In this document: piece by piece, positions 2,228 to 57,871 of the stretch
Layout: each line of letters opens with the position of its first letter
Position numbering within the stretch: the first letter of the stretch is position 1
Notes under the pieces: generated by a model
Databases searched by the model: none
Told to the model about the DNA's origin: nothing
What the model saw: only the letters and a program-made list of their open reading frames with translations
DNA from: Gemmatimonadaceae bacterium
GTDB taxonomy: Bacteria; Gemmatimonadota; Gemmatimonadetes; Gemmatimonadales; Gemmatimonadaceae
DNA: 64,000 nucleotides
NCBI GenBank assembly: GCA_013813715.1
Contig: JACCRF010000041.1
Location: 62,001 to 126,000 of the forward strand
Reading direction: 5' to 3'
Program-made: the position numbers and the translations under genes

Positions 2228-4534
2228 TTGAGGACTCCAATTCCAGAGACGCGGGCAGCCGAGCCGCACCGGGCGTTCGCCACCGTCGCTGTATTCACCT
2301 CGTTCTCGGCGATTGCGATCGCCGCGGTCTACTGGATTTCCCGCATCGGCTTCGCCAATCCGGCGGCTCCGGTGGTCAGGTCGGCGATGCTGGCCGTTTT
2401 TCTCGCGACTGCACCTTATGCAGCGCGGTCTGCGCTGCGCCGTCGCCACCCGTCTGCCGGTCGATCGTTAGCCGGCACCAAACAAGGGGACGCGGGCAAT
2501 GGCCAGGGGGAACCGGCCAAGGTGGACCGGGCAACGGGTAGCGAGCACCGGGTGTCGGGCGCTGGGCAACGGAACAGCTACGGCTGGGCGACGTCGTACT
2601 CCTTTCTCTGGCTCCTGACGCTTGCGGTCACGGCGGTCGCCGGCCGTGCGGTTCTACTGTTTGGCGTCAATCTCTTCCCACTCCTCGGCACTGTCGGCGT
2701 CGTGTCCCTGGTCGTGATCGTCGCGCGCTGGATGATGCGAGGCCCGAAGCTGGCGAGCTTCGCGGTAATCGCAACGAGCATCGGCTTCGGCGCCTGGGCC
2801 GCTGGCGTCGTGTGGGGACGCATCTACAAGAGTCCGCTGTTCGCGGAGATGATGGCGCTCGACGGCATCGTCCATCACGACGCCATCGGCCTCGCCGCCC
2901 TCGGCAACATGCTCCGCACGTACGGGGTGGCGAGCGTCGGATTGGACGGCCTTCCCTACATGCCGTACCATTGGGGCTCATCGTGGCTCTTCGCGCAGAT
3001 GGCGAACCTGCTGGACATGAGCGTGCTCGATTTCTACCAGCTGGGTTATCCGGTCACGATGATTCCGTTTTTTCTGGGCGGCGTTCTCGGATTCGCGACC
3101 GAGGTTCGGGGGCTGACGCGTGAGCACGACGTCCGGTTGCAAGACCTGAGGAGCGACTTCGTTGCATGGGTCCTGCTTCTCGTTGCGACGATCGGTGTCG
3201 TTCCGATGGCCGCAATGGACGCGCTTGGAGTGTGGACATCGAACCTGGTGATCTCGGAGTCCTATGCCGTCGCGATCCCGTGCGCGCTGCTGCTGCTTGG
3301 CACGACGATGGTGTACTGGAAGGACTTCGGACCCGACCCGCTCGCGGCACAGAATCGGATTTCGGCTCTGCTGTTGCCCTGTCTGGTACTTCCGACGGGG
3401 ATCATTCTGCTGGGGTATCTCAAGATATCGCTGATGATTCTGGGCTTCGTCGTCGCCGGGTACGCGGCACTTCGGGTGGGTTTGCTCCGCCGCGGCGCCT
3501 TTTTGCTCCTGACGGTTGTTGTCGCGGTCGCGTTTGCACTTACGTCTCGCGAAGTCTCGCTTCCGGCGCACAGAGAGGGCCTCGCTCCGCTCGATTTCCT
3601 GAGGAGCTTTGTTCCCCCGGCCTGGTGGCCCTTGTTCCCGCTGGTGCACCTCTTCTGGTCTTTCCTCTACGTCGGACTGCGGATGAGAGCGACGGGGATT
3701 TCCACCATCGGCGGGCTTCGCGTCGCCGTGCGCGAAGGTCGGATTCTCGATGCGGAAGTGGTGACGGTGCTCGCGCTCGTCGGGCTGGCTCCCGGTTTGC
3801 TGCTTCACATCGATGGCGGGTCGGCCTTCTACTTTTCGGACGTGCAGCGGTGGCTGTCCGTTGGACTGCTGCTTGCAGGTGGCAGCGCGCTGATGTTTCA
3901 CGCACCTACGCCGCGTCAGGACTTTCCCCTGCGGAGGGCAGCGCTCGCGATGCTCGCGATCCCGCTCGCGATTTCCATGGCCATGAACGCGACGTTCTGG
4001 ATGCGGCAAATGCTGCGCGCGAATGCGGCGACGCGAAATGCCCTTTATTCAGCAAGCGCGAGTACCACATCGGGGTCCACTATTCGCGACCTTCCGTCGC
4101 TCGGCGACGGCACGCTGCTGCGAGCCGGCCTTCAGTCGGCGCGAAATCAGAACGCACTCTCCGAGCTTCGCCAGCTCGCCGATCTGCCTCGCGCGGATCG
4201 GCGCAGGACTGCTCTCTTCATTCCCCAGGACGAATCCGCCTATTGGGGAATTCTCGCGCGCCCCGGCGCCTGCACTTTTGCTGGCCACGTCGCCCCTGCA
4301 CTCGCGGCGATGGCGATGATAGACGGCATGCCTGCCGTGGGCTGCAAGCTGAGCCGCTATTACGGACTGAGTGGATACTCCCCGCGCTTACGCCCGCAGA
4401 CATTGCAGGACATGATGCCTTCCGTGCTCTGCGCGAAAGCGCGCCGGTATGGACTCGACCGCGTGCTCACTCTGCGGTTCGATGTGAAGGGCCGCGCTAC
4501 ACGCGAGTCCATACAGTGCAGCGGGATGTCATAA
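2228..4534 (+). CDS. large GT-C-like multi-pass membrane protein
   Basis: A 768-residue protein starting at TTG 2228, 7 bp after the GT2 gene. It has many membrane helices, a periplasmic-type loop with HHDAIGLAALGN and YMPYHWGSSW (about residues 217-258), and a soluble C-terminal domain of about 150 residues. The overall plan resembles the split pair at 5450 and 6435 (compare FGDLNIHLGMARS and YHFMFYF there), so both probably belong to one GT-C-like glycosyltransferase family using polyprenyl-linked sugars. Residues about 88-115 are a hydrophilic, low-complexity stretch (GDAGNGQGEPAKVDRATG) encoded by a GGGCAACGGG-type repeat at 2491-2573, so it looks like repeat DNA absorbed into the frame. 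Function is inferred; I recognise no single catalytic signature. Confidence 0.7.
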   Translation: MRTPIPETRAAEPHRAFATVAVFTSFSAIAIAAVYWISRIGFANPAAPVVRSAMLAVFLATAPYAARSALRRRHPSAGRSLAGTKQGDAGNGQGEPAKVDRATGSEHRVSGAGQRNSYGWATSYSFLWLLTLAVTAVAGRAVLLFGVNLFPLLGTVGVVSLVVIVARWMMRGPKLASFAVIATSIGFGAWAAGVVWGRIYKSPLFAEMMALDGIVHHDAIGLAALGNMLRTYGVASVGLDGLPYMPYHWGSSWLFAQMANLLDMSVLDFYQLGYPVTMIPFFLGGVLGFATEVRGLTREHDVRLQDLRSDFVAWVLLLVATIGVVPMAAMDALGVWTSNLVISESYAVAIPCALLLLGTTMVYWKDFGPDPLAAQNRISALLLPCLVLPTGIILLGYLKISLMILGFVVAGYAALRVGLLRRGAFLLLTVVVAVAFALTSREVSLPAHREGLAPLDFLRSFVPPAWWPLFPLVHLFWSFLYVGLRMRATGISTIGGLRVAVREGRILDAEVVTVLALVGLAPGLLLHIDGGSAFYFSDVQRWLSVGLLLAGGSALMFHAPTPRQDFPLRRAALAMLAIPLAISMAMNATFWMRQMLRANAATRNALYSASASTTSGSTIRDLPSLGDGTLLRAGLQSARNQNALSELRQLADLPRADRRRTALFIPQDESAYWGILARPGACTFAGHVAPALAAMAMIDGMPAVGCKLSRYYGLSGYSPRLRPQTLQDMMPSVLCAKARRYGLDRVLTLRFDVKGRATRESIQCSGMS
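2491..2573 (+). repeat. GGGCAACGGG-type dispersed repeat inside a coding region
   Basis: The stretch contains variants of CGGGCAACGGGTA and CACCGGGT, a theme shared with the near-identical 26 bp copies at 29656-29681 and 32182-32207. It is read in frame and encodes a hydrophilic insert between membrane segments of the GT-C-like protein. Confidence 0.5.
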
Positions 4535-4567
4535 CAGCGCTGAGTGGTCTCCGTTGCCGTCGATCGC

Positions 4568-5374
4568 CTAGCTCGCGGCCCCTCTCAAGCGGGCAGCTCC
4601 GGGCTCCACCTTGTCAGATTGTCTTGCGCGCGTAACTGCCGCGCTCCGATAGTCCCCACGCATCGCGCGCCGCCGAATCGTCACGAGGTCCTGAAACATC
4701 GTCATCGAATCGCGCAGCAGCCGCACCGTTGACACGTCCCCATTCACGAGCTGAACCGGAATTGGCCGGCCGTCGAGCCCGTTGTCCAGCGCGCAACGGA
4801 ATATCTCGACGTCGAAAGCGAAGTGATCCGTCTGAAGAAGCGGCGCCAGCGCATCGGCGACGGCGCCGTCGAAGCCCTTCAGGCCGCACTGAGTGTCGGT
4901 CGGCCGCAGCCCGGCAATCGTCGACACCGCTGACCGGAACACCACGCTGCTCAGGCGCCGCCGCCACGACGGGCGCGCTACGAGCGTCGACGCGGGCAGC
5001 GAACGGTCACCGTACACGAAGTCCGCGCCCCCGCGTATCGTTTCATAGCAGGTCACGAGAGAGTTCAGTCCGTACGGCAGATCGACGTCCGTGAAGATCC
5101 GGCATCGCCCCCGCGCGTCGAGCAAGCCGGTCCGTACCGCGGAGCCTTTGCCGCGATTCACCGGCAGCTGCACCAGCCGCGCCTCCGCTGGCAGCCGTCG
5201 TGGATCGGGCCGGCTCTCCGGATCGCTGCCGTCATCCACAAGTATCACCTCGAACGTCAGGCCGAGGCCGCCGAGGAAGTCGTGAAGTATCGCTGCGCTG
5301 CGGTGCGCGAGTGCCTTCGCCTGGTATGTCGGAACGATGATCGACAGATCGACCACCTGATGCGGTTTGGGCAA
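4568..5374 (-). CDS. GT2 dolichyl-phosphate-glucosyltransferase-like
   Basis: Probable polyprenyl-phosphate sugar transferase of the Alg5/DPG-synthase branch of GT2. The GT-A domain shows LSIIVPTYQAK, LVDDGSDPES, PVNRGKGSAVRTG (the flexible loop typical of this branch), the metal-binding FTDVDLPYG and DTQCGLKGF. It is 268 residues and lacks a clear membrane tail. The start is uncertain: TTG 5374 is the first start in frame, and a GTG lies about 18 bp further in. The gene lies convergent to the GT-C-like gene ending at 4534. A probable inversion breakpoint lies directly upstream at 5375-5450, so its original leader and its link to the minus-strand genes beyond 6435 may have been lost. Confidence 0.88.
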   Translation of the reverse strand: MPKPHQVVDLSIIVPTYQAKALAHRSAAILHDFLGGLGLTFEVILVDDGSDPESRPDPRRLPAEARLVQLPVNRGKGSAVRTGLLDARGRCRIFTDVDLPYGLNSLVTCYETIRGGADFVYGDRSLPASTLVARPSWRRRLSSVVFRSAVSTIAGLRPTDTQCGLKGFDGAVADALAPLLQTDHFAFDVEIFRCALDNGLDGRPIPVQLVNGDVSTVRLLRDSMTMFQDLVTIRRRAMRGDYRSAAVTRARQSDKVEPGAARLRGAAS

Positions 5375-5449
5375 TTGAATCTGTATCGGGATTTGGTGAG
5401 TCCTTCCTGGTTGCGACCCGCAGCCTTGAGGAGAATAAACTGTCCGTCC

Positions 5450-6499
5450 ATGTTATGCTGGCTGGCTGCGAATATTTTGGGGGCGAGGAATATGGTGCTG
5501 AACTGGGCAAAAGTGAGCGCGAGCTTTCGGCCCGACGATCTGAAGGGCGCCGTTTTCATCGGCGTAATCCTCGGACTCGGCGCGTTCTGGAACGGGGCCT
5601 TGATCATCGCCGCGCTGCTGATCCTGGGCGCGGCGGTCGTTTGGGCCCCACGCCGGATGGACCTCATTGTGTGCTGTGCGGTCGCAACCGTTCTCGCAAT
5701 TCTCGAGGCCCGCTTTTTCGTCAGAACGGGGCCCGCCATTGCACCCACGCCCTACATTGGGTTCCTCGCCGAGCCACCGACACTGAGGGGAATCGCGACG
5801 TATTACCTGAAGCTCCTCGGGCTGTTCGTGCCTCTCCTCACCATTGCCCTCTGGAAGCTGCGGCCGCAGGGCCGGCTGTTCCTCGCCTCGTTGCTAGTGC
5901 CGATTGGTTTCGCGACGACCTTCACGTTCACGCCTGACGTGTCGGTCAATCACAAGTTCGTCAACGCCGGCGTCAGGATCGCAGCGATATTCGTCGCAAT
6001 GCTGGTGGTGCGGATGTTCGACAGCGGCCGAATCGCGCGCGTGGCGGCGATTGCACTCTGTCTCGCGCTCACGGCCACGGGTGTGGTCGATCTCATCGCT
6101 GTCTGGAACTTCAACACCGAAAAACGGACTCACAATCTCGCCGATCCTCTGCTGCTGTGGGCATTGCGCGAGACAGACCCGCGAGCGGTGTTCGCAGCGC
6201 CCTCCGTGTATCATCACCTCGTCTACTTTACCGGAAGGCGGTCGTATCTGGGACTACCGTATTGGGCGGAATCGGCGGGCTACGATGTCGCGCCGAGGAA
6301 GGCGGTGCTCCAGCGAATCTACGAGGGCAATGACGCCGGGGAAATCGCACGCCTCGCCGCCTCCGAGGGAATTTCCTACGTCATCGTGGATGACATCGCG
6401 AGAGGCCACTACCCCGGGCTACGCGACGACGCTCTCAGGAAGCGGTTTCGCCTGGCGTTCGATCAGGGCTCGACGCAGGTGTACGCGCTTCACCCCTGA
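5450..6499 (+). CDS. C-terminal half of a GT-C-like membrane protein (inverted fragment)
   Basis: A protein of about 350 residues starting at ATG 5450, or at ATG 5492 which follows GGGGGCGAGGA. It has roughly eight hydrophobic segments (GVILGLGAFWNGALIIAALL, AVATVLAILEARFF, LLGLFVPLLTIALW and others) and a soluble tail of about 110 residues (SYVIVDDIARGHYPG). It lacks the first membrane segments and the luminal loop expected of a GT-C-like protein. Those parts are present in the convergent minus-strand gene 6435-7571, which in turn lacks this C-terminal part. The two overlap tail to tail by 65 bp, and their sum (about 728 residues) matches the intact 768-residue relative at 2228. I read it as the 3' half of one gene flipped by an inversion; whether it is expressed is unknown. 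Confidence 0.6.
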   Translation: MLCWLAANILGARNMVLNWAKVSASFRPDDLKGAVFIGVILGLGAFWNGALIIAALLILGAAVVWAPRRMDLIVCCAVATVLAILEARFFVRTGPAIAPTPYIGFLAEPPTLRGIATYYLKLLGLFVPLLTIALWKLRPQGRLFLASLLVPIGFATTFTFTPDVSVNHKFVNAGVRIAAIFVAMLVVRMFDSGRIARVAAIALCLALTATGVVDLIAVWNFNTEKRTHNLADPLLLWALRETDPRAVFAAPSVYHHLVYFTGRRSYLGLPYWAESAGYDVAPRKAVLQRIYEGNDAGEIARLAASEGISYVIVDDIARGHYPGLRDDALRKRFRLAFDQGSTQVYALHP

Positions 6500-7571
6500 G
6501 ACGTCGCAGCAAGGGCGGACCCGCGTCCAGCCCCGTCGTCCGGACCAGATACAGAATTCCGATCAACACCAGCCCGAACGCGAACGCGAAGTGCCGCTCG
6601 ACGACGTACACGTTGAGATTCCAGATCCCCCATTCCTCGTGGCCGGTGAGCCCGATGAACCGGTTGGTGCGAAGCACTTCGGCGATTCGACCCACAAATC
6701 CCGCCGGCTCGAGCTGCGCGAAATAGAAGAACGCGGCGGGGGAGCTCCTCAGCAGAAAGAAGAGCACCGCCAGCGCACCGACCCGCGCATCGCGGCCAAT
6801 GACGCTGCCTGCGGCGTGCAGCAGCAGCAGAACGGATGCGAACGATAGGATCGACGGGAGATTGAGCGCCCAGTCGATCGGCAGGCCCAGGTACTCGAGG
6901 TTGCCAACGAGAAAGTAGAACATGAAGTGGTAGCGGACGTCCGTACCCGCGTAGGCGACGTATCCGGTCGGAAAGTTGTTGCCGGCTGAAAACGACCGCG
7001 CCATGCCGAGATGGATGTTGAGATCGCCGAAGGCGGTACGCCCGAGTATGAGCGTGTCGCCATCGAGACGGGCCGTGTGGAACATCAGCACGGTGCCGAG
7101 CACCAATCCGGTAGCCGCGACGCCGATGTCGACCCAGGGACGCCGCGGCCGTTTCGCCGTTCCGTCATCCCGTCGTTCAATTCTTGAAGGCGTTTCCTCC
7201 GCGGTCTCTGTGGTCTCGGTGTCTAAATCATTTCCTTTGGGCGCGGCGCGGGATCGACCATTACTCTGTCGCCGGATGCGGATCACCCCGAGGGCAACCA
7301 GCGCGACGCTGATGACAACTGCGTTCGCCGTGGCCATGGGCGCCGCGGTGTCCTTTGCGAACCAGGCGATGATGTAGGCGACCCACGTCATCAGCAGCGT
7401 TCCGGACAGAAACGCCGCCGGAATCGAGATGACCCAGGGGGCCACTACCTGCCGCTCCACTGGCAGCCGCGCGCCGTCCAGGCCGGGAACAAGCGCGCGA
7501 CACAGGCGATGGCCGACGTACGTCGCGATTGCCAGAAAGACGAGTGCGAGTAGCGGCCGTACGAAGTTCAT
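6435..7571 (-). CDS. N-terminal half of a GT-C-like membrane protein
   Basis: A 378-residue protein with an N-terminal helix (RPLLALVFLAIATYVGH), further membrane segments, the luminal-type motifs FGDLNIHLGMARS, DVRYHFMFYF and HEEWGIWNLNVYVVERHF, and then an abrupt hydrophilic end (LRGEARTPASSPDRTPGE). That end is simply the antisense of the last codons of the plus-strand gene at 5450-6499. The family layout demands more membrane helices and a soluble tail after the HEEWGIWN region, and these sit on the opposite strand next door. Residues about 105-130 are a hydrophilic insert (TETTETAEE) encoded by repeat-like DNA at 7186-7250. It lies 15 bp downstream of the gene 7587-9218 on the same strand, as in an operon. 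Confidence 0.65.
   Translation of the reverse strand: MNFVRPLLALVFLAIATYVGHRLCRALVPGLDGARLPVERQVVAPWVISIPAAFLSGTLLMTWVAYIIAWFAKDTAAPMATANAVVISVALVALGVIRIRRQSNGRSRAAPKGNDLDTETTETAEETPSRIERRDDGTAKRPRRPWVDIGVAATGLVLGTVLMFHTARLDGDTLILGRTAFGDLNIHLGMARSFSAGNNFPTGYVAYAGTDVRYHFMFYFLVGNLEYLGLPIDWALNLPSILSFASVLLLLHAAGSVIGRDARVGALAVLFFLLRSSPAAFFYFAQLEPAGFVGRIAEVLRTNRFIGLTGHEEWGIWNLNVYVVERHFAFAFGLVLIGILYLVRTTGLDAGPPLLRRLRGEARTPASSPDRTPGETAS
7186..7250 (+). repeat. CTCTGTGGTCTC-type low-complexity repeat inside a coding region
   Basis: The plus strand reads TCCTCCGCGGTCTCTGTGG and TCTCGGTGTC here. The theme recurs in intergenic DNA at 18650-18682 and more weakly at 24868-24912. In the minus-strand gene it is translated as an acidic Thr/Glu-rich insert between membrane segments. 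Confidence 0.4.
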
Positions 7572-7586
7572 CTCCGGCGAAACCGC

Positions 7587-9218
7587 TCAGTATGTCTGGA
7601 AATACAGCTTCCGATCCTGAAACGCCACGCTGTCGACCTGTGAGAGGCCCGAAAGCCTGGTGGGTGATACGAAGAGGAATTTACCCGGCTGCTGTCGCAG
7701 AGACGCAACTGTGGCGGGCATCGTTGATTCAACAACGAAGTAGTACGAGCCGAGCCTGGTAAAGGAATCCATTCCGTCGGAATACAGCTGCTTCGGAACG
7801 CGGTGAAACTCGCGCGGGGGGATCGGCGTAAACGCCGCAACGTAAATGTACGCGAGGGAGACGTAACGCTCGATGATGATCGCGTCGTATCGATTCTGGT
7901 GACCACTGAGTGCGCGTCCCATGTCCACGCCAATCTTCTGAAAAGAAAGTTCCCGAAAGTACGGGCTCGTCGCGTACTGCCAGGTCATGGCCGCGAATGA
8001 AAGGACGATCCCCGCAAGCGCTACAGGATAGAAGATTCTGCGGCGTAGTGACTTCCTGCGCACGAGGTTCCCGAGGACGATCAATCCGGCGGCTGAAAAC
8101 AGCGGTGTCAGCACTGCAATTGCGGAGGCCCGCATGGTAGCGGGATTGCCGGTCGTCAACGCCGCGGGCAGGATCGCGACCGCCATCGCGATGTAGGCGT
8201 ACTTCTGGCCGCGGGAGCCCGCGCGCACCGCAAGCAGCGCAAGGCCAATCAACCCGGCGTAGAAGAATGCGATCTCGAAAGGAAGGAGTCTGGCCACCGT
8301 GAGACCTCGCAGCGTCCTCGGGACGAAGAGATAATACGGCTCGAGGTTGAGCCAGTAGTTGTTCAGAAGGATCGCCGCAAAGTGGACCGGATTGTCCGCC
8401 GAAATCGTTAACACGCGAGCGCGCGCGAAGAATCGCTCACCTTGATCGAGCAGGAACAGCATCTGAGGGAGTGCTCCGATAAATGCGCCCGCACCCAGAA
8501 GCAGAATGGGTCGCACCCGGTGCGCGGCGTGGCGCGCGATGTCGATCGCGATCACCAGAATGAGCAGGGGAGCGGTAAGCCGCGTGGATTGATACGAGTT
8601 CGTTGAAAGGCCGGTCAGCAGGCCAAGCAAAAGGACGTGACCGCCCGGAAAATTCGCGAGTGCTGCCCGCTGCCAGAGCCACAGAATCAGAATAAGGAAG
8701 AATCCGGGGAGAATGCCCCCTTCGTGGGCCACTCTCGAAAACTGGATGTGAAGGGGCGATAGAGCCGCAAAGAGCAGCGCCAGGACCGCATAGTCGTCGC
8801 CGCGCATGCCGCGAGCGAATGCGTAGATCAGAAGCAGCGACGCGATTCCGAGAACGGCCGCCGGAAGTCTCCCGGCGACCACGGAAAAGCCGGTAAATCG
8901 CTGCGGGATGGCCGCCAGCCAGGCGTAAAGGGCAGGCCGGTAGTCGCGTTCCCCAAAAGCCCGCACGACGGCCGGAAATCTGTCTCCGAACCTGTCGGCA
9001 CCAGTCTCCGCGAGTGACCAGCCGTCATAGATATTTGACAGCTCGTCCTGGTGCACCCCCAATGGGTACTGGTCGAGCTGATAGAGGCGCACGAAGGCAC
9101 CCAGGACGAGAAGCGCCATTACGGCGAGGCGGCGGATCTGCTTGCGCTCGAAGGTGATCATTGGTCTGGTTGCGGGCGCGACACGAGCCGGGACGCGGGG
9201 TCGCCATACTTGGCTCAT
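7587..9218 (-). CDS. GT39/PMT-like GT-C glycosyltransferase
   Basis: A 543-residue membrane protein of the ArnT/PMT type (GT-C fold, using polyprenyl-phosphate-linked sugars on the periplasmic side). After the first helix (MALLVLGAFVRLYQL) comes the acidic motif HQDELSNIYDGW, the usual site of the catalytic Asp in this fold. About ten more helices follow and a soluble tail of about 130 residues. The start is ATG 9218; an ATG 57 bp further in (MITFERKQ) would also precede the first helix. It is the first gene of a minus-strand operon (15 bp gap to the next gene) and is divergent from another GT39-like gene at 9363 across a 144 bp region that probably holds both promoters. Sugar and acceptor are unknown. 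Confidence 0.8.
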   Translation of the reverse strand: MSQVWRPRVPARVAPATRPMITFERKQIRRLAVMALLVLGAFVRLYQLDQYPLGVHQDELSNIYDGWSLAETGADRFGDRFPAVVRAFGERDYRPALYAWLAAIPQRFTGFSVVAGRLPAAVLGIASLLLIYAFARGMRGDDYAVLALLFAALSPLHIQFSRVAHEGGILPGFFLILILWLWQRAALANFPGGHVLLLGLLTGLSTNSYQSTRLTAPLLILVIAIDIARHAAHRVRPILLLGAGAFIGALPQMLFLLDQGERFFARARVLTISADNPVHFAAILLNNYWLNLEPYYLFVPRTLRGLTVARLLPFEIAFFYAGLIGLALLAVRAGSRGQKYAYIAMAVAILPAALTTGNPATMRASAIAVLTPLFSAAGLIVLGNLVRRKSLRRRIFYPVALAGIVLSFAAMTWQYATSPYFRELSFQKIGVDMGRALSGHQNRYDAIIIERYVSLAYIYVAAFTPIPPREFHRVPKQLYSDGMDSFTRLGSYYFVVESTMPATVASLRQQPGKFLFVSPTRLSGLSQVDSVAFQDRKLYFQTY

Positions 9219-29735: not shown

Positions 29736-30539
29736 TTGGGTGTGCGTGCGCAGTTCTACGAGAGTGTGGTTTCCAAGTGTATCCCCGATCGAGACGCTTC
29801 GGTTCTCGTGGTCGGGGGGGGCGAGACGGACAGGGGGGTTTTCGACGGCCTTGGCTTCAGGAACGTCGTAATTACGAACCTCGACACCCGTGCGACCGAA
29901 GCCGAGTTCGCGCCTTTTGCCTGGGAGCGGCAGGATGGGGAATGCCTGACCTATCCCGGCGAGAGCTTCGACTTCGTCGTCGCCAATGCCGTCCTGCATC
30001 ACTGTCGGTCACCACACCGGGCGCTGCTCGAGATGTACCGCGTGGCCAGAACCGGAATGGTCGCGATCGAGTCGCGCGACAGCCAACTGATGAAACTGTT
30101 CGAGAAGCTGAATCTGACGCAGGTGTACGAGCCGACAGCTGTTTTCTATAACGACTGCCGGTTCGGCGGGGTATCCAACACGGAGATTCCCAACTTCATC
30201 TATCGGTGGACCGAGAGGGAGGTCGAAAAAACCATTCGGTCATTTGCGCCGGAGGTACAGCCGTCGATCGAGTATTTCTACGGGTCGGACGTGCCCTGCA
30301 CGCCCGGTCTGGAGAAAAAAAGCGGGGGCAGGCAGCGGCTGATCGAGCTTCTGGTGCCGGCTTACAGGCTGTTCGCGATGGTCGCACCGCGACAGCAAAA
30401 TTTGTTCGGCTTCAGCGTTACCAAGCCGTCACCGTCCGAGCGGCTTCAGCCATGGCTCAAATGGGACGAGGACCGGCCCCGTTTCGACTCGGAGTGGGCA
30501 AAGGCAAGGTTCAAGGAAGGCGCCGCGACTCCGCTTTAA
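29736..30539 (+). CDS. class I SAM methyltransferase
   Basis: A methyltransferase of 267 residues of the Methyltransf_11 type, starting at TTG 29736 with CAGGAGTAAGG upstream. SAM-binding region: VLVVGGGETDRGVF (about residues 23-36; GGG replaces the usual GxGxG with an acidic residue next), LDTRATEAEFAPF and FDFVVANAVLHHCRSPHRAL, the common motif-II/III stretch. The C-terminal 120 residues are not recognised. Such enzymes in O-antigen loci often methylate sugars, or the chain end to stop growth; either is possible. Its TAA overlaps the TAA of the convergent Wzi gene in a shared TTAA (30536-30539). Confidence 0.75.
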   Translation: MGVRAQFYESVVSKCIPDRDASVLVVGGGETDRGVFDGLGFRNVVITNLDTRATEAEFAPFAWERQDGECLTYPGESFDFVVANAVLHHCRSPHRALLEMYRVARTGMVAIESRDSQLMKLFEKLNLTQVYEPTAVFYNDCRFGGVSNTEIPNFIYRWTEREVEKTIRSFAPEVQPSIEYFYGSDVPCTPGLEKKSGGRQRLIELLVPAYRLFAMVAPRQQNLFGFSVTKPSPSERLQPWLKWDEDRPRFDSEWAKARFKEGAATPL

Positions 30540-32224
30540 AAGTTTTGTCTCAATCCCAGCACAAAGCTTCCGTTCGTGCGATCGCCGGTGAAATTTCGGT
30601 TCAGCTCAGTCGTCAGGACGATCCGTCCGAGAACGTCTACCGGGCCGATGAAACGCAGGGCCTCGATGCCGACTGAATTCATCACGTCCACAGCGCGGGG
30701 CGTGTCAGGCCCTGACTGATACTGCGTGAGCACTTCTTTCGACACCGCCCGGCTCACGAACGCTGTCATCCGGCCACGTGTCGTGAATCGATCGACGGCG
30801 AAGCTCTGTGCACCGCCGCTTCCCGGCCCGACATCGGCGCCGAGCATCTGGCCCCGAAACGTGTGACCCTGGCGATGTACCCCGTGGAGATAGATCTGCC
30901 CCTCCCCGCGCGTACGTGACCCCGCCGGTGAGCTGTAGTTGAATACCTCGCCGCGCACGGCCGTCAGCTTCTGAGCTGACCCCCACACGCGACGAACTCC
31001 GATGTTCGTGGCCGCCGCATGATCCGGCTCGAGCAGCAGATCCCGCAGATCGCCGCTGTGATCTTCGCGGCCGTACTCACCGTACATCTCGAATCCGCTC
31101 CCGGGCGGGGCCCACCGCAGGAACAGGGATGCGAGCTGGTTCTCCTTCAGTGAGCGGTCCCCTCCCAATACGGGAACTTCGCTCTCCTTCGGCAGCCTGC
31201 TCTTGAAGATGTTCTGAAACGGAAGTCCCAGATTGTGCGACGAGACTCCGTTGCTGTCGCTCGCAGCGTGAAAGAAACGCGAAGCGCCGATCTCGAGTCC
31301 GGACATCCCCCGCGGCTGGAAGATGCCGATAAGTCCCGCCATGAACCGCGTCGTGCCGGCGAGATCGAAACTCTCGAAGTAAGTCGGACCAATAACCGTC
31401 GAGAAAGGCGACTGGTACAGGCGTCCGTACACTACCCGGCCGTGCACTCTGCCGATCCCGACGTTCGCCGGCGTCGATGTACCGACGAACACGTGGGGAA
31501 AGCCGCCCGCATTGTTGCCGAGCACATACGGATATTTGTCGGTCGGGCCCCACCACTGACTGGCGGTCGATACCCCTGCCGCGATACCGGCAACGTCCAC
31601 TCTGAGAGTGCTCTGACCGAAATCCGCGCGACTGTATGGGAGAGCGCCGAACCGTTGCGGCCGGTCGATTGCCCGTGGAAACTGGCCATCGGCATAAACG
31701 AACCGCCCGCTCTCGGTATTCCGGAGAAGCCGAAACGACTGGTTCTCCGCGCGAAACGCTGTCGGGGCGACAACTGCCGAAAACGGACCCCATCGCGCCG
31801 AGACGCCCGTCTGGAAAGCACTGGTGAGGCCCTTGCCCGTCCACGCCGCGCCGTCGTTGCCACCGAACGGATACGACGTGTTGATCGTCATGATCAACGA
31901 CGGCCGAATGTAGTCCCAACTGGAGCCGCGATGAGTGCGGCGACCAAGGTTGTACCGTCTCGCCCATGGGTGGTTGGCATCGGCGGGACCCAGTGCGTCG
32001 AGTTCCACGGGGGAGAATCCTCTGATGCTCCACGGGTAACTCTCCGGTTTCGACATTGTCTGCACGTATCGCAGGTAGCTCTCGAGCTCGCTGCCGGCGA
32101 ATATCTCGCTCCTGCCGCCCGCCGGCGACTGTGCGACCGCAGATCCGGCCGACGCTGCGAGAATGCCAATGAGCATGTAGACGCGGGTAATGGGCACCGG
32201 GTAACGGGTAACGGCTCTACTCAT
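30536..32224 (-). CDS. Wzi-like capsule-assembly outer-membrane protein (type A)
   Basis: Outer-membrane beta-barrel of the capsule-assembly Wzi family, expected to bind or position polysaccharide at the surface. From ATG 32224 a signal peptide (RVYMLIGILAASAGSAVAQ) is followed by a helical plug-like part (SYLRYVQTMSKPESYPWSIR, ELDALGPADANHPW), then alternating beta strands with family-like motifs YPFGGNDGAAWTGKGL, QWWGPTDKYPYVLGNNAGGF, FQPRGMSGLEIGASRFFH and EPDHAAATNIG. The last residue is Phe (LGLRQNF), as in many outer-membrane proteins. ATG 32176 is an alternative start; codons upstream of it come from a 26 bp dispersed repeat. Paralogous to 54271-56022. Divergent from a second Wzi-type gene at 32430. 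Confidence 0.85.
   Translation of the reverse strand: MSRAVTRYPVPITRVYMLIGILAASAGSAVAQSPAGGRSEIFAGSELESYLRYVQTMSKPESYPWSIRGFSPVELDALGPADANHPWARRYNLGRRTHRGSSWDYIRPSLIMTINTSYPFGGNDGAAWTGKGLTSAFQTGVSARWGPFSAVVAPTAFRAENQSFRLLRNTESGRFVYADGQFPRAIDRPQRFGALPYSRADFGQSTLRVDVAGIAAGVSTASQWWGPTDKYPYVLGNNAGGFPHVFVGTSTPANVGIGRVHGRVVYGRLYQSPFSTVIGPTYFESFDLAGTTRFMAGLIGIFQPRGMSGLEIGASRFFHAASDSNGVSSHNLGLPFQNIFKSRLPKESEVPVLGGDRSLKENQLASLFLRWAPPGSGFEMYGEYGREDHSGDLRDLLLEPDHAAATNIGVRRVWGSAQKLTAVRGEVFNYSSPAGSRTRGEGQIYLHGVHRQGHTFRGQMLGADVGPGSGGAQSFAVDRFTTRGRMTAFVSRAVSKEVLTQYQSGPDTPRAVDVMNSVGIEALRFIGPVDVLGRIVLTTELNRNFTGDRTNGSFVLGLRQNF
32182..32207 (+). repeat. 26 bp dispersed repeat, copy 2
   Basis: Reads CGCGGGTAATGGGCACCGGG then TAACGG, 24 of 26 identical to the inverted copy at 29656-29681, with another GGTAACGG unit directly after. 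In the minus-strand Wzi gene it is translated as the positively charged start of the signal peptide (RAVTRYPVPITR). Confidence 0.8.
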
Positions 32225-32429
32225 CAGTCATTCTCGATAAACAAGGTTTGCAGGGCCATGGCGTCGCCGCTAACTTATCATGGGGGTCGCCGTCATGCGG
32301 ACGACCACTATACTTACTTTCATGTCCGGCGCGCAGCAAGCTCGCACGTGCCAAGGACGCGTGTGCCAGGCTGGCACCGATTTCACTCCGACTTGCGCCG
32401 GACAGCAATTTACCATTCTTCATTCAATA
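32225..32429. promoter_or_regulatory. divergent intergenic region of Wzi pair 1
   Basis: About 205 bp separate the two divergent Wzi-like genes and must hold their promoters. In-frame starts for the plus gene exist at 32280 and 32295 but lack a signal peptide directly after them. No clear promoter was recognised. Confidence 0.35.
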
Positions 32430-34094
32430 ATGCGTCCTTCCCAACGCTTACGGCACCTCATGGTCGCGGCCGTCGTCCTCACGCCCTTAGAGCAGTCGTT
32501 GGCGCAGTTCAGGCCGACGCCGGTGCCGCTGCGGGAGCCACTGACGCAGGGCGTGGTCACTGTGAGCGGGGACTCGGTCGACCGGCTGCGCCTGGCCGAG
32601 CTCGGCGGTAGTGCGCGCGTTGACGGGCTCATGTTGCGGTCGACATCGACGCTCACTGATCCGCGCCGGTCGGAATATGCGGCCCGTAGCTTCACGCTCG
32701 TATTTCCCCTCGTTCATTTCGTCTCGAACAGCGAGTTGCCCTTCGGCCAGAATGACGGCGCGCTCTGGGCGGGAAAGGGCGCGAACGTTCGCGTGCTGGG
32801 CGGATTCACGGCGTCTTTCGGTCCGGTGCGGCTGGTCGCGATTCCGGAATTTGTCTATTCGGCGAATAACCGCCTTTCCATTGACCCCACGGACGAGCGT
32901 CTCACGATGCCCGTCCCGCCGTCGCGCAGCAGATTTTCGTCTCCCTTCAACGTCTTTCCGTACTCGCTCGACCTGCCGTGGCGCTTCGGCACCAAGTCGC
33001 TCAGCCGGCTTTACGGTGGACAGTCGTCCCTTACGGTGACGGCGGGTCCGATACAGGTCGGCGCCGCGTCCGAGAACGAATGGTGGGGGCCGGCGATCCG
33101 GAATCCCATCGTGATGAGCGATAACGCGCCTGGCTTTCCTCATGCATTCCTGCGCACCAGCGCCCCGGTCAACACGATACTCGGCCGCCTCGACGCCCGC
33201 TTCATCGTGGGTGGAGTGCACGAGTCCGATTTCTTCAACGACTCTGTTGCCGACGATGTGCGGTCGCTCAGCGCGATCGCGCTGACGTGGAAGCAGAGTG
33301 CCGCATCCGGCCTGACGCTTGGGTTCACGCGGTCGGTGTTCGCGCCGGTCGACGGGTACAGCGAGGTCGCGGGCAGCGCGTTCGATGCGTTTCGCGGGGT
33401 CGGCCATCCGAACGCCATGTCGCTCACCGACTCCACGATGGAGCCGGGGCCCGATCAGATCGTCTCCCTGTTCGCGCGGTGGGCGCTGCCGCGCCATGGG
33501 CTCGAGAGTTATGTGGAGTGGGGGAGAGCTGACTTCCCGGTGTCGCCGCGCGATTTCCTCGAGCAGCCGAATCACTCTCGCGGCTACACGGCAGGATTCC
33601 AGTGGGTTCGCGCGTTCTCGGCAGGTTCGTCGCGTGTGCGCCTCCAGGGTGAGCTGACGAGTGTCGAGCAGAGCACAACTTATCGTTTCCGTCCCGTCGG
33701 ATCGTTTTACACGAGCCGCGCCGTACTGCAGGGCTACACAAACGAAGGACAGCTTATTGGCGCAGGGCTCGGCCCCGGATCTTCAGGCGGTTGGCTGGCG
33801 GGGGATTATTTCCGCGGCGGCTGGCAGTTCGGCCTCTCGATCGGGCGGACGCGCTTCAACAACGACGCGTTCTTCCTTCAGCGGTACGCCAGCCGTTGCG
33901 GTCACGACGTGACGATCTATCCCGGGCTTCGTGCGAGCTACTCGAACCGCTATCTCCGTCTCGGAGCCGAGTTCGCGGCAGTGGACAGATACAACACGTT
34001 CTTTCAGAACAACGCGAGCTGCGACGCTGGCGGAGCGGGAACTGACAGGTCGAACAAGAATCTGTGGGTGACTCTGGCGACGTTCGGCTGGTAA
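32430..34094 (+). CDS. Wzi-like outer-membrane protein (type B)
   Basis: A second, distinct Wzi-like barrel, about 554 residues from ATG 32430, which puts a signal peptide first (RHLMVAAVVLTPLEQSLAQ). An N-terminal domain (DSVDRLRLAELGG) is followed by beta-strand-rich sequence with LPFGQNDGALWAGKGANVRV, ASENEWWGPAIRNPIVMSDN, PGFPHAFLRTSAPVNTILGR, ESYVEWGRADFPVSPRDFLE and AGLGPGSSGGWLAGDYF. The order NDGxxWxGKG, then EWWGP, then N(A/N)PGFPH, is shared with the minus-strand neighbour and with 54271 and 56174. It is closest in layout to 56174-57871. Two Cys near the C-terminus (SRCGHDV, NASCDAGG) could form a disulphide. Expected in the outer membrane. Confidence 0.85.
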   Translation: MRPSQRLRHLMVAAVVLTPLEQSLAQFRPTPVPLREPLTQGVVTVSGDSVDRLRLAELGGSARVDGLMLRSTSTLTDPRRSEYAARSFTLVFPLVHFVSNSELPFGQNDGALWAGKGANVRVLGGFTASFGPVRLVAIPEFVYSANNRLSIDPTDERLTMPVPPSRSRFSSPFNVFPYSLDLPWRFGTKSLSRLYGGQSSLTVTAGPIQVGAASENEWWGPAIRNPIVMSDNAPGFPHAFLRTSAPVNTILGRLDARFIVGGVHESDFFNDSVADDVRSLSAIALTWKQSAASGLTLGFTRSVFAPVDGYSEVAGSAFDAFRGVGHPNAMSLTDSTMEPGPDQIVSLFARWALPRHGLESYVEWGRADFPVSPRDFLEQPNHSRGYTAGFQWVRAFSAGSSRVRLQGELTSVEQSTTYRFRPVGSFYTSRAVLQGYTNEGQLIGAGLGPGSSGGWLAGDYFRGGWQFGLSIGRTRFNNDAFFLQRYASRCGHDVTIYPGLRASYSNRYLRLGAEFAAVDRYNTFFQNNASCDAGGAGTDRSNKNLWVTLATFGW

Positions 34095-53832: not shown

Positions 53833-54274
53833 TCAGGCGGGGATGGTAACAGCGGACGGATGTGAAGGCCCGCGCAGTCTCACCGACGTTGCGCGAATCG
53901 AGAGCGCCGCAAGAGCGACGAGGCTCAGCGACATCGAGATGCTATCCCGGCGAATGAGACAGAGCACGACGAAGATTGCGAGCGACACGATGAGGTTTCG
54001 GCTGTTCACCGCCTTCACGTTTGTCGCGAGCGCGAAATGCCCGGCCGAATAGCCTTCCTGCACACCAGCCCGCGCGATCGCGATGTATCGGGGCGCGGCG
54101 ATTCCCAGTCCCATGACGAGTGGAAGATACAGAAGCCCCGTCGCGGGCGGGAGAGCGCGTACTCCCCGAAGCCCATCGGTCCGAGCATCGAGGCCACGAC
54201 TTTCAGCAGGAAAATCCCGCGGCTATCACGATCAGCTCCGCGAGCGTCGTCCACGCGAGCTGTCCGCGCATCAT
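53833..54274 (-). pseudogene. decayed Wzx-like flippase gene
   Basis: Parts of one flippase appear in three frames on the minus strand. ATG 54274 overlaps the Wzi stop and starts MMRGQLAWTTLAELIVIAAG. A shift continues with IFLLKVVASMLGPMGFGEYA (a typical flippase N-terminus). Another shift gives MGLGIAAPRYIAIARAGVQE and GYSAGHFALAT. That is followed at once by NSRNLIVSLAIFVVLCLIRR, which looks like a late membrane segment, so most of the middle is gone. About 440 bp remain of an expected roughly 1300. It precedes rfbA by 10 bp. Confidence 0.75.
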
Positions 54275-56022
54275 CGCAGGTTGTAGCGCACGCCCAGCAG
54301 TGCGTTGATGTTCCACGCATCAGCGTCAAAATACCGGTTGAATTCGCGCACGAGAGATAGCCCGCCGGTGAGGTCGTATGCGCCAATGAATCGCGACATC
54401 TCGAAGCCGAGCGCATGTGTCACGTTGATCGCCTCCGGCCGCCGCACGCCGAGCACGAGGTAGTCGCCTATCTCCCCCTTGAGGTCGCGCTTCCAGCTCG
54501 CGGTCCAGCGCCCGTGAGGGAAGAAGCGGTCCACCGCCAGCGTAGACCCCGCCGCGGCGCCGGCGCCCACGTCCGCGCCGAGGAGCTGCCCGCGATTCGT
54601 GTGTCCCTGACGAATCAGGCCGTGAATGTAGATCTCGCCTTCCCCGCGGTACCGGCTCAGTTGCGGGAGCTGAAAGTTGATGATCTCCGCGCGCACCGCA
54701 GTGAGTGCTCTTGGAGTGAACGCGACCACCTTTCTCATCCCGATGCCATAGAAGCGCGAGTGGTCGGGCTCCTGAAGGAGATCGCGAAAGTCTACGCTGT
54801 GGTCATCCCGTCCATATTCGCCGAAGAGCTCGAATCCGCTTCGCGGAAGAACCCATCGTGCGAAACCCGAAACGAGCTGATTGTCTGCGACGCCGCGGTC
54901 GTCGACGCCCTCCTGAAAGGGGGAGTCTGGAATCCTGTCCGGCTGCAGGCTCTTCTTGAGGAAGCCCTGAAACGCCTTGGTAGCGTAGCTTCGCGGAATT
55001 CCCGACCGGGGCCAGATCGAGTGAAAGAATCTCGACACTCCGACCTCGAGGCCCGTGATGCCGCGCGGCTGAAACGCCATGACGAATCCGGTGGTGAACC
55101 GCTTCGTGCCCGGCTCGGCGCGGCTGGTGTATTCGGCGGGACCGGTAACCGTCGAGAAGTCCGACTGGGCGAGCGTGCCCCACATTACTTTGCCGTGAAT
55201 CCTGCCGATGAAGATGTTGAGCGGCTCGCTCGATCCGACGAACACGTGCGGAAAGCCCGCCGCGTTGTTGCCCAGTATGAGCGGATATTCGCCGCCGGGT
55301 CCCCATCCCTGGTTCGCCGTCGAGGCCCCGAACGCGAGGAAGGGAAAGTCCACACGCAACGTGCTCTGGCCAGGATCGATCTGCGAGTATGACGAAGCTC
55401 CGAAACGCTGAGGGCGGTCAATGCCTCCCAAACGATCGTCCGCAAACTGCCTGCCGCCCGGGAGCCCGGTTGGGACTGTATTGAAGAACCGGTTCTCGGC
55501 GATGAACGCGCTAGGCGCGAGCGTCAGCGATACGGGCCCCCACCTCACCCATGCCCCGAGCTGCACTGACGACGTGAGACCGCGACCCGCCCACACCGCG
55601 CCGTCGTTGTTCCCGTACGGAGACCCGGTATTGTAGCGAAACGCGGCCGACGGATCGATGATGTCCCAGCGGACGGGACCAATCGATCTGCCGTCGTTGG
55701 CGAGGCGCCGGCGCCACGGATGAGCGCTATCGCGCGGGATGAGCCGATCGAGCTCGCGTGCAGAAAATGCCCGCGTGGACCACGGATAACCCGGCACTCT
55801 GCCCGTCGTCTGGAGATAGCGGAGATAGTTCTCGGGATCGCTGCCGACGAACACCTCTGCTCGCAGGCTCGCCGCCCCGGTCGCCGCGCCGGTCGCTGTC
55901 GCGCTCGCGAACGTCGCGGCGGAATCCTGCGCGACGGCGACGGCGACTGTGGCAATCATCAGCAATGAGATCGTCGATGCCACGCGAATCGCGCGTACTC
56001 CGGCGCTTCTCATCCTATTCAT
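54271..56022 (-). CDS. Wzi-like capsule-assembly outer-membrane protein (type A)
   Basis: Outer-membrane barrel of about 583 residues. From ATG 56022 (MNRMRSAGVRAIRVASTISL) a signal peptide ends near VAVAVAQ; the longer frame to 56256 overlaps the opposite gene. Motifs match the other type A gene at 30536: DPENYLRYLQTTGRVPGYPW, YGNNDGAVWAGRGLTSSVQL, STANQGWGPGGEYPLILGNN, AGFPHVFVGSSEPLNIFIGR, FQPRGITGLEVGVSRFFHSI and EPDHSRFYGIGMRKVV. Expected role is surface attachment or secretion of polysaccharide, known for the Wzi family. The flippase remnant starts inside its stop codon, suggesting they were once co-transcribed. Divergent from the type B gene at 56174. Confidence 0.87.
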   Translation of the reverse strand: MNRMRSAGVRAIRVASTISLLMIATVAVAVAQDSAATFASATATGAATGAASLRAEVFVGSDPENYLRYLQTTGRVPGYPWSTRAFSARELDRLIPRDSAHPWRRRLANDGRSIGPVRWDIIDPSAAFRYNTGSPYGNNDGAVWAGRGLTSSVQLGAWVRWGPVSLTLAPSAFIAENRFFNTVPTGLPGGRQFADDRLGGIDRPQRFGASSYSQIDPGQSTLRVDFPFLAFGASTANQGWGPGGEYPLILGNNAAGFPHVFVGSSEPLNIFIGRIHGKVMWGTLAQSDFSTVTGPAEYTSRAEPGTKRFTTGFVMAFQPRGITGLEVGVSRFFHSIWPRSGIPRSYATKAFQGFLKKSLQPDRIPDSPFQEGVDDRGVADNQLVSGFARWVLPRSGFELFGEYGRDDHSVDFRDLLQEPDHSRFYGIGMRKVVAFTPRALTAVRAEIINFQLPQLSRYRGEGEIYIHGLIRQGHTNRGQLLGADVGAGAAAGSTLAVDRFFPHGRWTASWKRDLKGEIGDYLVLGVRRPEAINVTHALGFEMSRFIGAYDLTGGLSLVREFNRYFDADAWNINALLGVRYNLR

Positions 56023-56173
56023 TGACGGCGTCAAATGGTAACTTTGTCCCCTGAAATTCAGACTTGTTGGAGCCCAGTTAGCGGACCGGAAATCGTTGCT
56101 CTCAAGCGCCACACAATCTAAGACAAGCCATCGGCAGCCGCTCGTGCCATGCAGCGTCCGCCGCGCGAAGCAG
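56023..56173. promoter_or_regulatory. divergent intergenic region of Wzi pair 2
   Basis: 151 bp separating the two divergent Wzi-like genes, so promoters for both must be here or within the 5' ends. No clear box pair was recognised. Confidence 0.35.
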
Positions 56174-57871
56174 ATGGCTTTTCTCGAACTTGCCGCGTCA
56201 ATGCTTGCCGCATCCATGTTCGGCGGCGGATCGATGCTCGCACAGCAGCCGGCCATCGCCGCGGCAGGCGACAGCGCTGGCGTGCTGTCGTATGTCGTGC
56301 CGCTGATCCTCGTCGGCGGTCAGCCCGCCGACCGCCTCCGGCTCGAGCAGATGAGGGGCAACGCGAGTCTCAGCGGCTACATGATTCGCTCGCCGTCGTC
56401 GCTGACGCCATGGCCCGCGAGCTCGAGATGGTGGAGCGCGTCGCTCATCGCGCCCGAGCTTTACGCTGCCCACAACACGGCGATCCCTTTCTCGATCAAC
56501 GACGGTCCAGTCTGGGCCGGCGTCGGCGCGAGCACGCGAGTGATTTCAGGCGTGCGACTCTCTGCGGGACCGCTGCGAATCACTCTCGCGCCAGAGCTGG
56601 TACAGGCCGAGAACGCATTTTTCCGGCTCCGGGACACGGTGCGCTTCTACGCGCCGCCGGTGCCCGTCGAGCGGAGCGGCGGAGGTTTCGTCTTTCCCTG
56701 GTATGTGAAGCCTTACTCGATCGACCTGCCGATGCGTTTCGGCCGCGAATCGATCCAGCGGGTTGACGCCGGGCAGTCGACCGTCTCGGTCGGATTTCGC
56801 GGCGCCGAGGCGGGCGTCTCCAACGAGAACCATTGGTGGGGACCGGGCGTGCGCAACGCACTCGTCCTCAGCAACAACGCACCCGGTTTCCCTCACCTGT
56901 TCGCAAGAACGGGGCGGCCGTGGCGCAACCGCTTCGGCGAGCTCGAGGCGCGTCTCATCGTTGGCGGTCTCACCGAATCGAAGTACTTCGACACCACTTC
57001 CACAAACAATCTCAGGTCTCTGAGCGCGTTCGCGGTGACCTTTAACCCCCGGTTTCAGCAGAACCTCGTCATCGGGGCGTCGCGCTCCGTATTCGCGACT
57101 TCCAAAGGCTGGAAACGAATTCCGGGACGGTTCCTCGACGCGTTCGCGGCCACTGGCCGTCCGAACAATCGTCCCCTTGCCGATTCGTCGCTCTATCCCG
57201 GCGGCCGCGACCAGATCTACTCGCTGTTCGGCCGGTGGGTCTTCCCGGACGACGGATTCGAGGCGTATGCCGAATGGGCGCGCACCGAATTTCCCATTTC
57301 GCTGCGCGATCTGCTCGTCGCCCCCAACCACACTCAGGGCTACACGCTAGGTCTGGGCTGGACACGCCAGGCGTTCAGAGAGGAGGGGCGGGTTCGGCTT
57401 CAGGCAGAGGTCACGAGCGTCGAGCAGAGCGCGACGTTTCGCGACCGGCCGCAAGGAAGCTACTACACGAGCCGTCGTGTCATTCAGGGATACACTCAGA
57501 TGGGCCAGCCGCTGGCGGCAGCGATCGGCCCCGGTGCATCGGGACAGTGGCTCGCTGCCGATTACATCGAGGCGGCGTGGAGCTTCGGGGTCTTCGCGGG
57601 CCGCATCCGCTGGAACGAGGATATCCACAGCACCTTCGGATTCCCCCTTTACCAAGGTTACTGCATCCACGATGTGAGCGTCTTCCCTGGAGCTAAAGCG
57701 TCCGCCGGCGGCCGTTTCGGCTATATTTCCGCCGACTTGTCGTTCGGTAACCGCTTGAACGCTTTTTTCCAGGAGCAGTCGGGATGCCCAAAGGGCAATT
57801 CGGTGCTGGACATCCGGAACCGGACGATGACTGTGACTGTGGGCACGTTCACGCCCGGCTGGGGCCGATGA
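56174..57871 (+). CDS. Wzi-like outer-membrane protein (type B)
   Basis: About 565 residues from ATG 56174, where a signal peptide follows (MAFLELAASMLAASMFGGGS, cleaved near MLAQQ); 56096 is a longer in-frame start without merit. The motif order matches 32430-34094: DRLRLEQMRGNASLSGYMIR, IPFSINDGPVWAGVGASTRV, VSNENHWWGPGVRNALVLSN, NAPGFPHLFARTGRPWRNRF, EAYAEWARTEFPISLRDLLV and AIGPGASGQWLAADYIEAAW. It keeps the same two late Cys regions (GYCIHDV, QSGCPKG). This gene and 54271 repeat the divergent pair at 30536/32430, pointing to duplication of a two-gene module. Expected in the outer membrane. Confidence 0.87.
   Translation: MAFLELAASMLAASMFGGGSMLAQQPAIAAAGDSAGVLSYVVPLILVGGQPADRLRLEQMRGNASLSGYMIRSPSSLTPWPASSRWWSASLIAPELYAAHNTAIPFSINDGPVWAGVGASTRVISGVRLSAGPLRITLAPELVQAENAFFRLRDTVRFYAPPVPVERSGGGFVFPWYVKPYSIDLPMRFGRESIQRVDAGQSTVSVGFRGAEAGVSNENHWWGPGVRNALVLSNNAPGFPHLFARTGRPWRNRFGELEARLIVGGLTESKYFDTTSTNNLRSLSAFAVTFNPRFQQNLVIGASRSVFATSKGWKRIPGRFLDAFAATGRPNNRPLADSSLYPGGRDQIYSLFGRWVFPDDGFEAYAEWARTEFPISLRDLLVAPNHTQGYTLGLGWTRQAFREEGRVRLQAEVTSVEQSATFRDRPQGSYYTSRRVIQGYTQMGQPLAAAIGPGASGQWLAADYIEAAWSFGVFAGRIRWNEDIHSTFGFPLYQGYCIHDVSVFPGAKASAGGRFGYISADLSFGNRLNAFFQEQSGCPKGNSVLDIRNRTMTVTVGTFTPGWGR

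Follow-up and report, generated by a model that had tools for sequence, protein, structure and literature searches.

The locus and its surroundings

The window, meaning the whole stretch of 64,000 nucleotides analysed here, covers positions 62001-126000 of its contig in the draft genome of an uncultured bacterium (3.73 Mb, 183 contigs, 96.6% complete). By its predicted gene content, the region is a surface-polysaccharide locus, because many glycosyltransferase, Wzi, Wzz, flippase and sugar-aminotransferase genes are found in it. Three Wzi-like capsule assembly genes (PF14052) lie at 30536-32224, 32280-34094 and 54271-56256, two of them as divergent neighbours. The features discussed below are as follows.

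4568-5374, minus strand: family 2 glycosyltransferase (GT2) gene (PF00535, E 5e-12), adjoining the left border
5360-5491, no strand: non-coding spacer that separates the C-terminal half (C-half) from the divergent GT2 gene; GC 51%, negative codon score
5490-6510, no strand: inferred inverted segment of about 1.0 kb, placed by the ends of homology and the change points of the codon score
5492-6499, plus strand: C-terminal half of the GT-C gene, inverted; profile positions 348-692 of 694, codon score positive from 5489-5492
6435-7571, minus strand: N-terminal half (N-half) of the same GT-C glycosyltransferase gene; profile positions 8-328 of 694, with its own codons reaching from 7571 to about 6500-6530
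7587-9218, minus strand: PMT_2-type GT-C glycosyltransferase gene (PF13231, E 6.8e-11), upstream of the N-half on the same strand with a gap of 15 bp

Two halves of one gene

The N-half ORF was confirmed in the sequence and encodes 378 amino acids, of which the tail, about 20 codons, runs antisense through the end of the C-half up to a stop. The C-half frame is open up to its stop at 6497-6499. Upstream, the same plus-strand frame stays open for about 145 further codons (4938-5374) antisense to the GT2 gene, so simple ORF callers start the C-half at GTG 5282. Neither half has a match in Pfam. Against a profile of full-length relatives, the two halves tile the family in order and without overlap, with i-Evalues of 2e-91 for the N-half and 1.5e-78 for the C-half, and a second profile built from 12 members (684 positions) is matched at the same two places (6-325 and 353-681). 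The original prediction, that the two frames are the halves of one GT-C-like gene separated by an inversion of about 1 kb, agrees with these results. When the segment 5375-6500 is flipped in silico, as had been suggested, a single minus-strand frame of 731 amino acids is obtained, and the rebuilt protein aligns end to end with full-length homologues. Judged by this sequence evidence, both ORFs are halves of one GT-C-fold membrane glycosyltransferase.

As coding sequence, each half still looks intact. Internal stops are absent, codon usage is of the kind normal in the window (0.295 bits per codon in one half and 0.325 in the other), and of 56 columns without variation among twelve relatives, 49 are conserved across the two halves. 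The losses include the adjacent N309 and Q310 of the family, which are V and E here, and five more.

Homologues and the apparent uniqueness of the split

A search with just the N-half as the query over about 85,000 species genomes gave 24 loci, all in Clostridia-type genomes, with identities of 27-43% to the N-half. Two of these, in which the ORF runs to the end of the locus DNA, were left out of the complete set. In all the remaining 22 the homologue is a single protein of 674-834 amino acids, matched by both halves in order. A search of 391 genomes of the same class as these relatives gave about 50 family members, all but one of which consist of one uninterrupted frame, 632-1008 codons long, and none of which has its halves on opposite strands. 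The exception (G584:C5:3346-5036, in a Clostridia genome) is broken by a stop within the gene and by a shift of frame, both on a single strand, and a full-length copy is present in the same genome. Naturally half-size genes, which would have spoken against the original prediction, are ruled out, as the homologues are full length. From the single-gene homologues and the unsplit members, therefore, the split is read as a derived state that is peculiar to the source genome as far as sampled.

No intact gene was found in 18 other genomes of the genus, and the 12-member profile searched over 395 genomes of the phylum matched nothing beyond the two halves in the window. No homologue turned up elsewhere in the genus or in the order, and no near relative with an unsplit gene was found in the genus, family or order. 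No plasmid match was found for the C-half. The gene was probably acquired horizontally.

Fold and presumed activity of the family

The fold was compared on an unsplit relative (locus L012), not on the window protein. Its AlphaFold model (pLDDT 83, pTM 0.87) has a multi-helix GT-C membrane fold and a C-terminal soluble domain, and the top 44 VIA rows for it are GT-C enzymes or soluble domains of oligosaccharyltransferases. Stt3 (8agc_A; Z 16.5, rmsd 6.0, 448 aligned), ArnT (5f15; Z 14.2, rmsd 6.0, 438 aligned) and Dpy19 (7zlh_A; Z 13.5, rmsd 5.9, 466 aligned) were matched, and Foldseek E-values reached down to 2.4e-8. No sequence relative in the PDB was found at a meaningful E-value. With the Pfam Dpy19 family (PF10034), one of 12 relatives scored just over the cut-off (27.9 vs 27.2 bits). 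On its modelled structure, this relative belongs with the GT-C enzymes and resembles Stt3, PglB, ArnT, AftA and Dpy19 closely in fold, and the product of the window gene would probably be a membrane enzyme attaching sugars. In several Clostridia loci the GT-C gene directly follows a GtrB-like GT2 gene, and because of this arrangement a polyprenyl-phosphate sugar is a putative donor.

A pairing like that of GT2 and GT-C genes in these Clostridia loci is seen elsewhere in the window, where a GtrB-like GT2 gene at 1243-2220 is followed, 7 bp on, by a gene for a 768-codon membrane protein without a Pfam match (to 4534). This gene, at 2228-4534, had been taken as an intact relative of the split gene. 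No homology between them was detectable in a comparison of a profile with a single sequence, which is not very sensitive, and a remote relation is possible.

Borders of the inferred inverted segment

A codon-usage score trained on the window genes was used to locate the borders. In the C-half frame the score is negative from about 5399 and turns positive at 5489-5492; over the interval 5378-5493 it averages -0.39, vs about +0.3 in genes, and the GC content there is 51% vs 62% in the window. In the N-half, read downward, the score climbs as far as about 6524, levels off until 6500 and declines after that. The left border thus falls within about 5480-5500 and the right within about 6497-6530, so that both are located to within about 30 bases. 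The left border had been placed at 5375, immediately next to the GT2 gene, and the codon signal moves it to about 5490. In the GT2 gene itself, the codon signal suggests a start near 5356. The spacer probably represents what used to lie upstream of the GT2 gene, and because it is read in this way, a tightly packed operon of the PMT gene, the GT-C gene and the GT2 gene, which the flip was expected to restore, is disfavoured. The case for such an operon is weakened by the roughly 130 bp of non-coding sequence before the GT2 gene. Within the protein, the break falls in a loop that varies in length among relatives and is poorly ordered in the L012 model, where residues 353-355 and 358-376 have pLDDT < 50.

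The original prediction also pointed to a short word, CTGTATC, present at both borders in opposite orientation. Its full extent is TCTGTATC, 8 bp, at 5380-5387 and 6548-6555. This is the longest inverted match between the border regions, and border regions of equal size, once shuffled, mostly reach 7 to 9 bp; the words as recombination sites are therefore ruled out, being within chance. Both copies lie outside the refined border intervals. Flips that take TCTGTATC as the borders give an in-frame protein of 711 amino acids, but they lie outside the change points of the codon signal. Imperfect inverted repeats in 4500-7650 are at most 28 nt long, the longest about 75% complementary, and none of them pairs the two borders. 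Microhomology at the refined borders amounts to 4-5 bp, as expected by chance.

These results bear on two readings that had been offered for the locus. One is a reversible DNA switch (inverton), in which site-specific recombination would turn the enzyme on and off. The position in a cell-surface polysaccharide region would suit it, and the genome has ten tyrosine recombinase hits and one resolvase hit. However, because no border repeat goes beyond chance and no recombinase match (PF00239, PF00589) is found on the contig of the window, such a switch of surface glycosylation is unsupported, and we regard it as very unlikely. The locus looks like a one-off rearrangement and not an on/off switch. 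The other reading is an assembly error, in which a gene that is continuous in the genome has been given a false inversion in the draft. The many contigs of the draft, the full-length frame given by the flip and the undamaged state of both halves are what would be expected of it, and amplification chimaeras could still produce a false inversion. On the other hand, with no inverted repeat over 8 bp at the borders there is nothing for an assembler to confuse, so that a repeat-driven error is unlikely, and both borders are far from the ends of their contig, which measures at least 126 kb. An error of the assembly is thus considered improbable, although less so than the switch.

Origin of the rearrangement and fate of the halves

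The reading that we favour, as reasonably probable, is that a single recent inversion split the GT-C gene and that its original function was most likely lost or impaired. The DNA between about 5490 and about 6510 would have been inverted once, in the cell and not in the assembly; the likeliest route, taken as the default, is illegitimate recombination or template switching during replication, with no long repeats involved. Of the two ends, one would have lain within the large gene for the GT-C glycosyltransferase, at codons that specify a flexible loop, and the other just downstream of this gene, before the GT2 gene. A full-length protein would no longer be made in one piece, and the event would have been recent enough for no stops or frameshifts to gather in either half. 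Of the outcomes originally listed, a fixed disruption thus becomes, in its recent form, the most likely, and the assembly-error option is left with no repeat to cause it.

Three observations stand against a plain disruption. One is again the 183-contig state of the draft, and another is that the genus, family and order have yielded no near relative with the unsplit gene. The third is that an ATG with a strong ribosome-binding site lies exactly at the coding start of the C-half, which is more than a simple break needs. This best start, ATG 5492, stands behind GGGGGCGAGGA, and its computed ribosome-binding energy (-8.4) is stronger than those of all 22 window genes tested; among random sites it would rank between the top 1% and the top 5%. 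It is suggestive of separate expression of the C-half, and could also be luck. An alternative is that both halves are expressed after the inversion and that the two polypeptides assemble in the membrane as a working two-piece GT-C enzyme. The intact frames with normal codon usage and mostly conserved invariant residues, the own start of the C-half behind about 130 bp of non-coding sequence, and the position of the break in a variable loop with pLDDT under 50 would all agree with this. However, intact frames are equally expected after a recent break, invariant residues including N309 and Q310 are replaced, the N-half runs into its antisense codons, no promoter-like site was found at the borders, and no second split member was found among the family members of the same class. 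A two-piece enzyme is hence possible but rather unlikely. A polytopic GT-C glycosyltransferase encoded as two opposite-strand polypeptides, produced by fission through inversion and fixed with a new start for the C-half, is accordingly put forward as a tentative and somewhat doubtful proposal.

The locus offers a clean natural example in which a small inversion has cut a membrane-enzyme gene at a loop and left the two halves undamaged. Should both be expressed, it would illustrate how a two-part enzyme can arise through an inversion. If they are not, it would be a recent gene loss of an ordinary kind within a polysaccharide locus, and a warning that gene callers would list two unrelated short genes here.

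Comparison with known systems

The Clostridial family (about 700-850 amino acids, loci L010-L032) is homologous to both window halves over its whole length, although it is a single uninterrupted gene in every complete case, whereas the window has two ORFs on opposite strands. The GT-C enzymes of known structure (the Stt3/PglB oligosaccharyltransferases, Dpy19, ArnT and AftA) are matched by the L012 model over most of its length, while sequence identity is about 10-15% and the window gene is in two opposite-strand pieces. Invertons are located by their inverted repeats (PMC11892184). The window segment is like them in being an inverted stretch of about 1 kb in a surface-polysaccharide region, and unlike them in having neither inverted repeats at its ends nor a recombinase nearby. 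Split mitochondrial cox2 genes are likewise a membrane-protein gene in two complementary pieces, whose products are proposed to act as complexes in place of the undivided protein (PMC5374615, PMC9895450), whereas the window halves lie on opposite strands.
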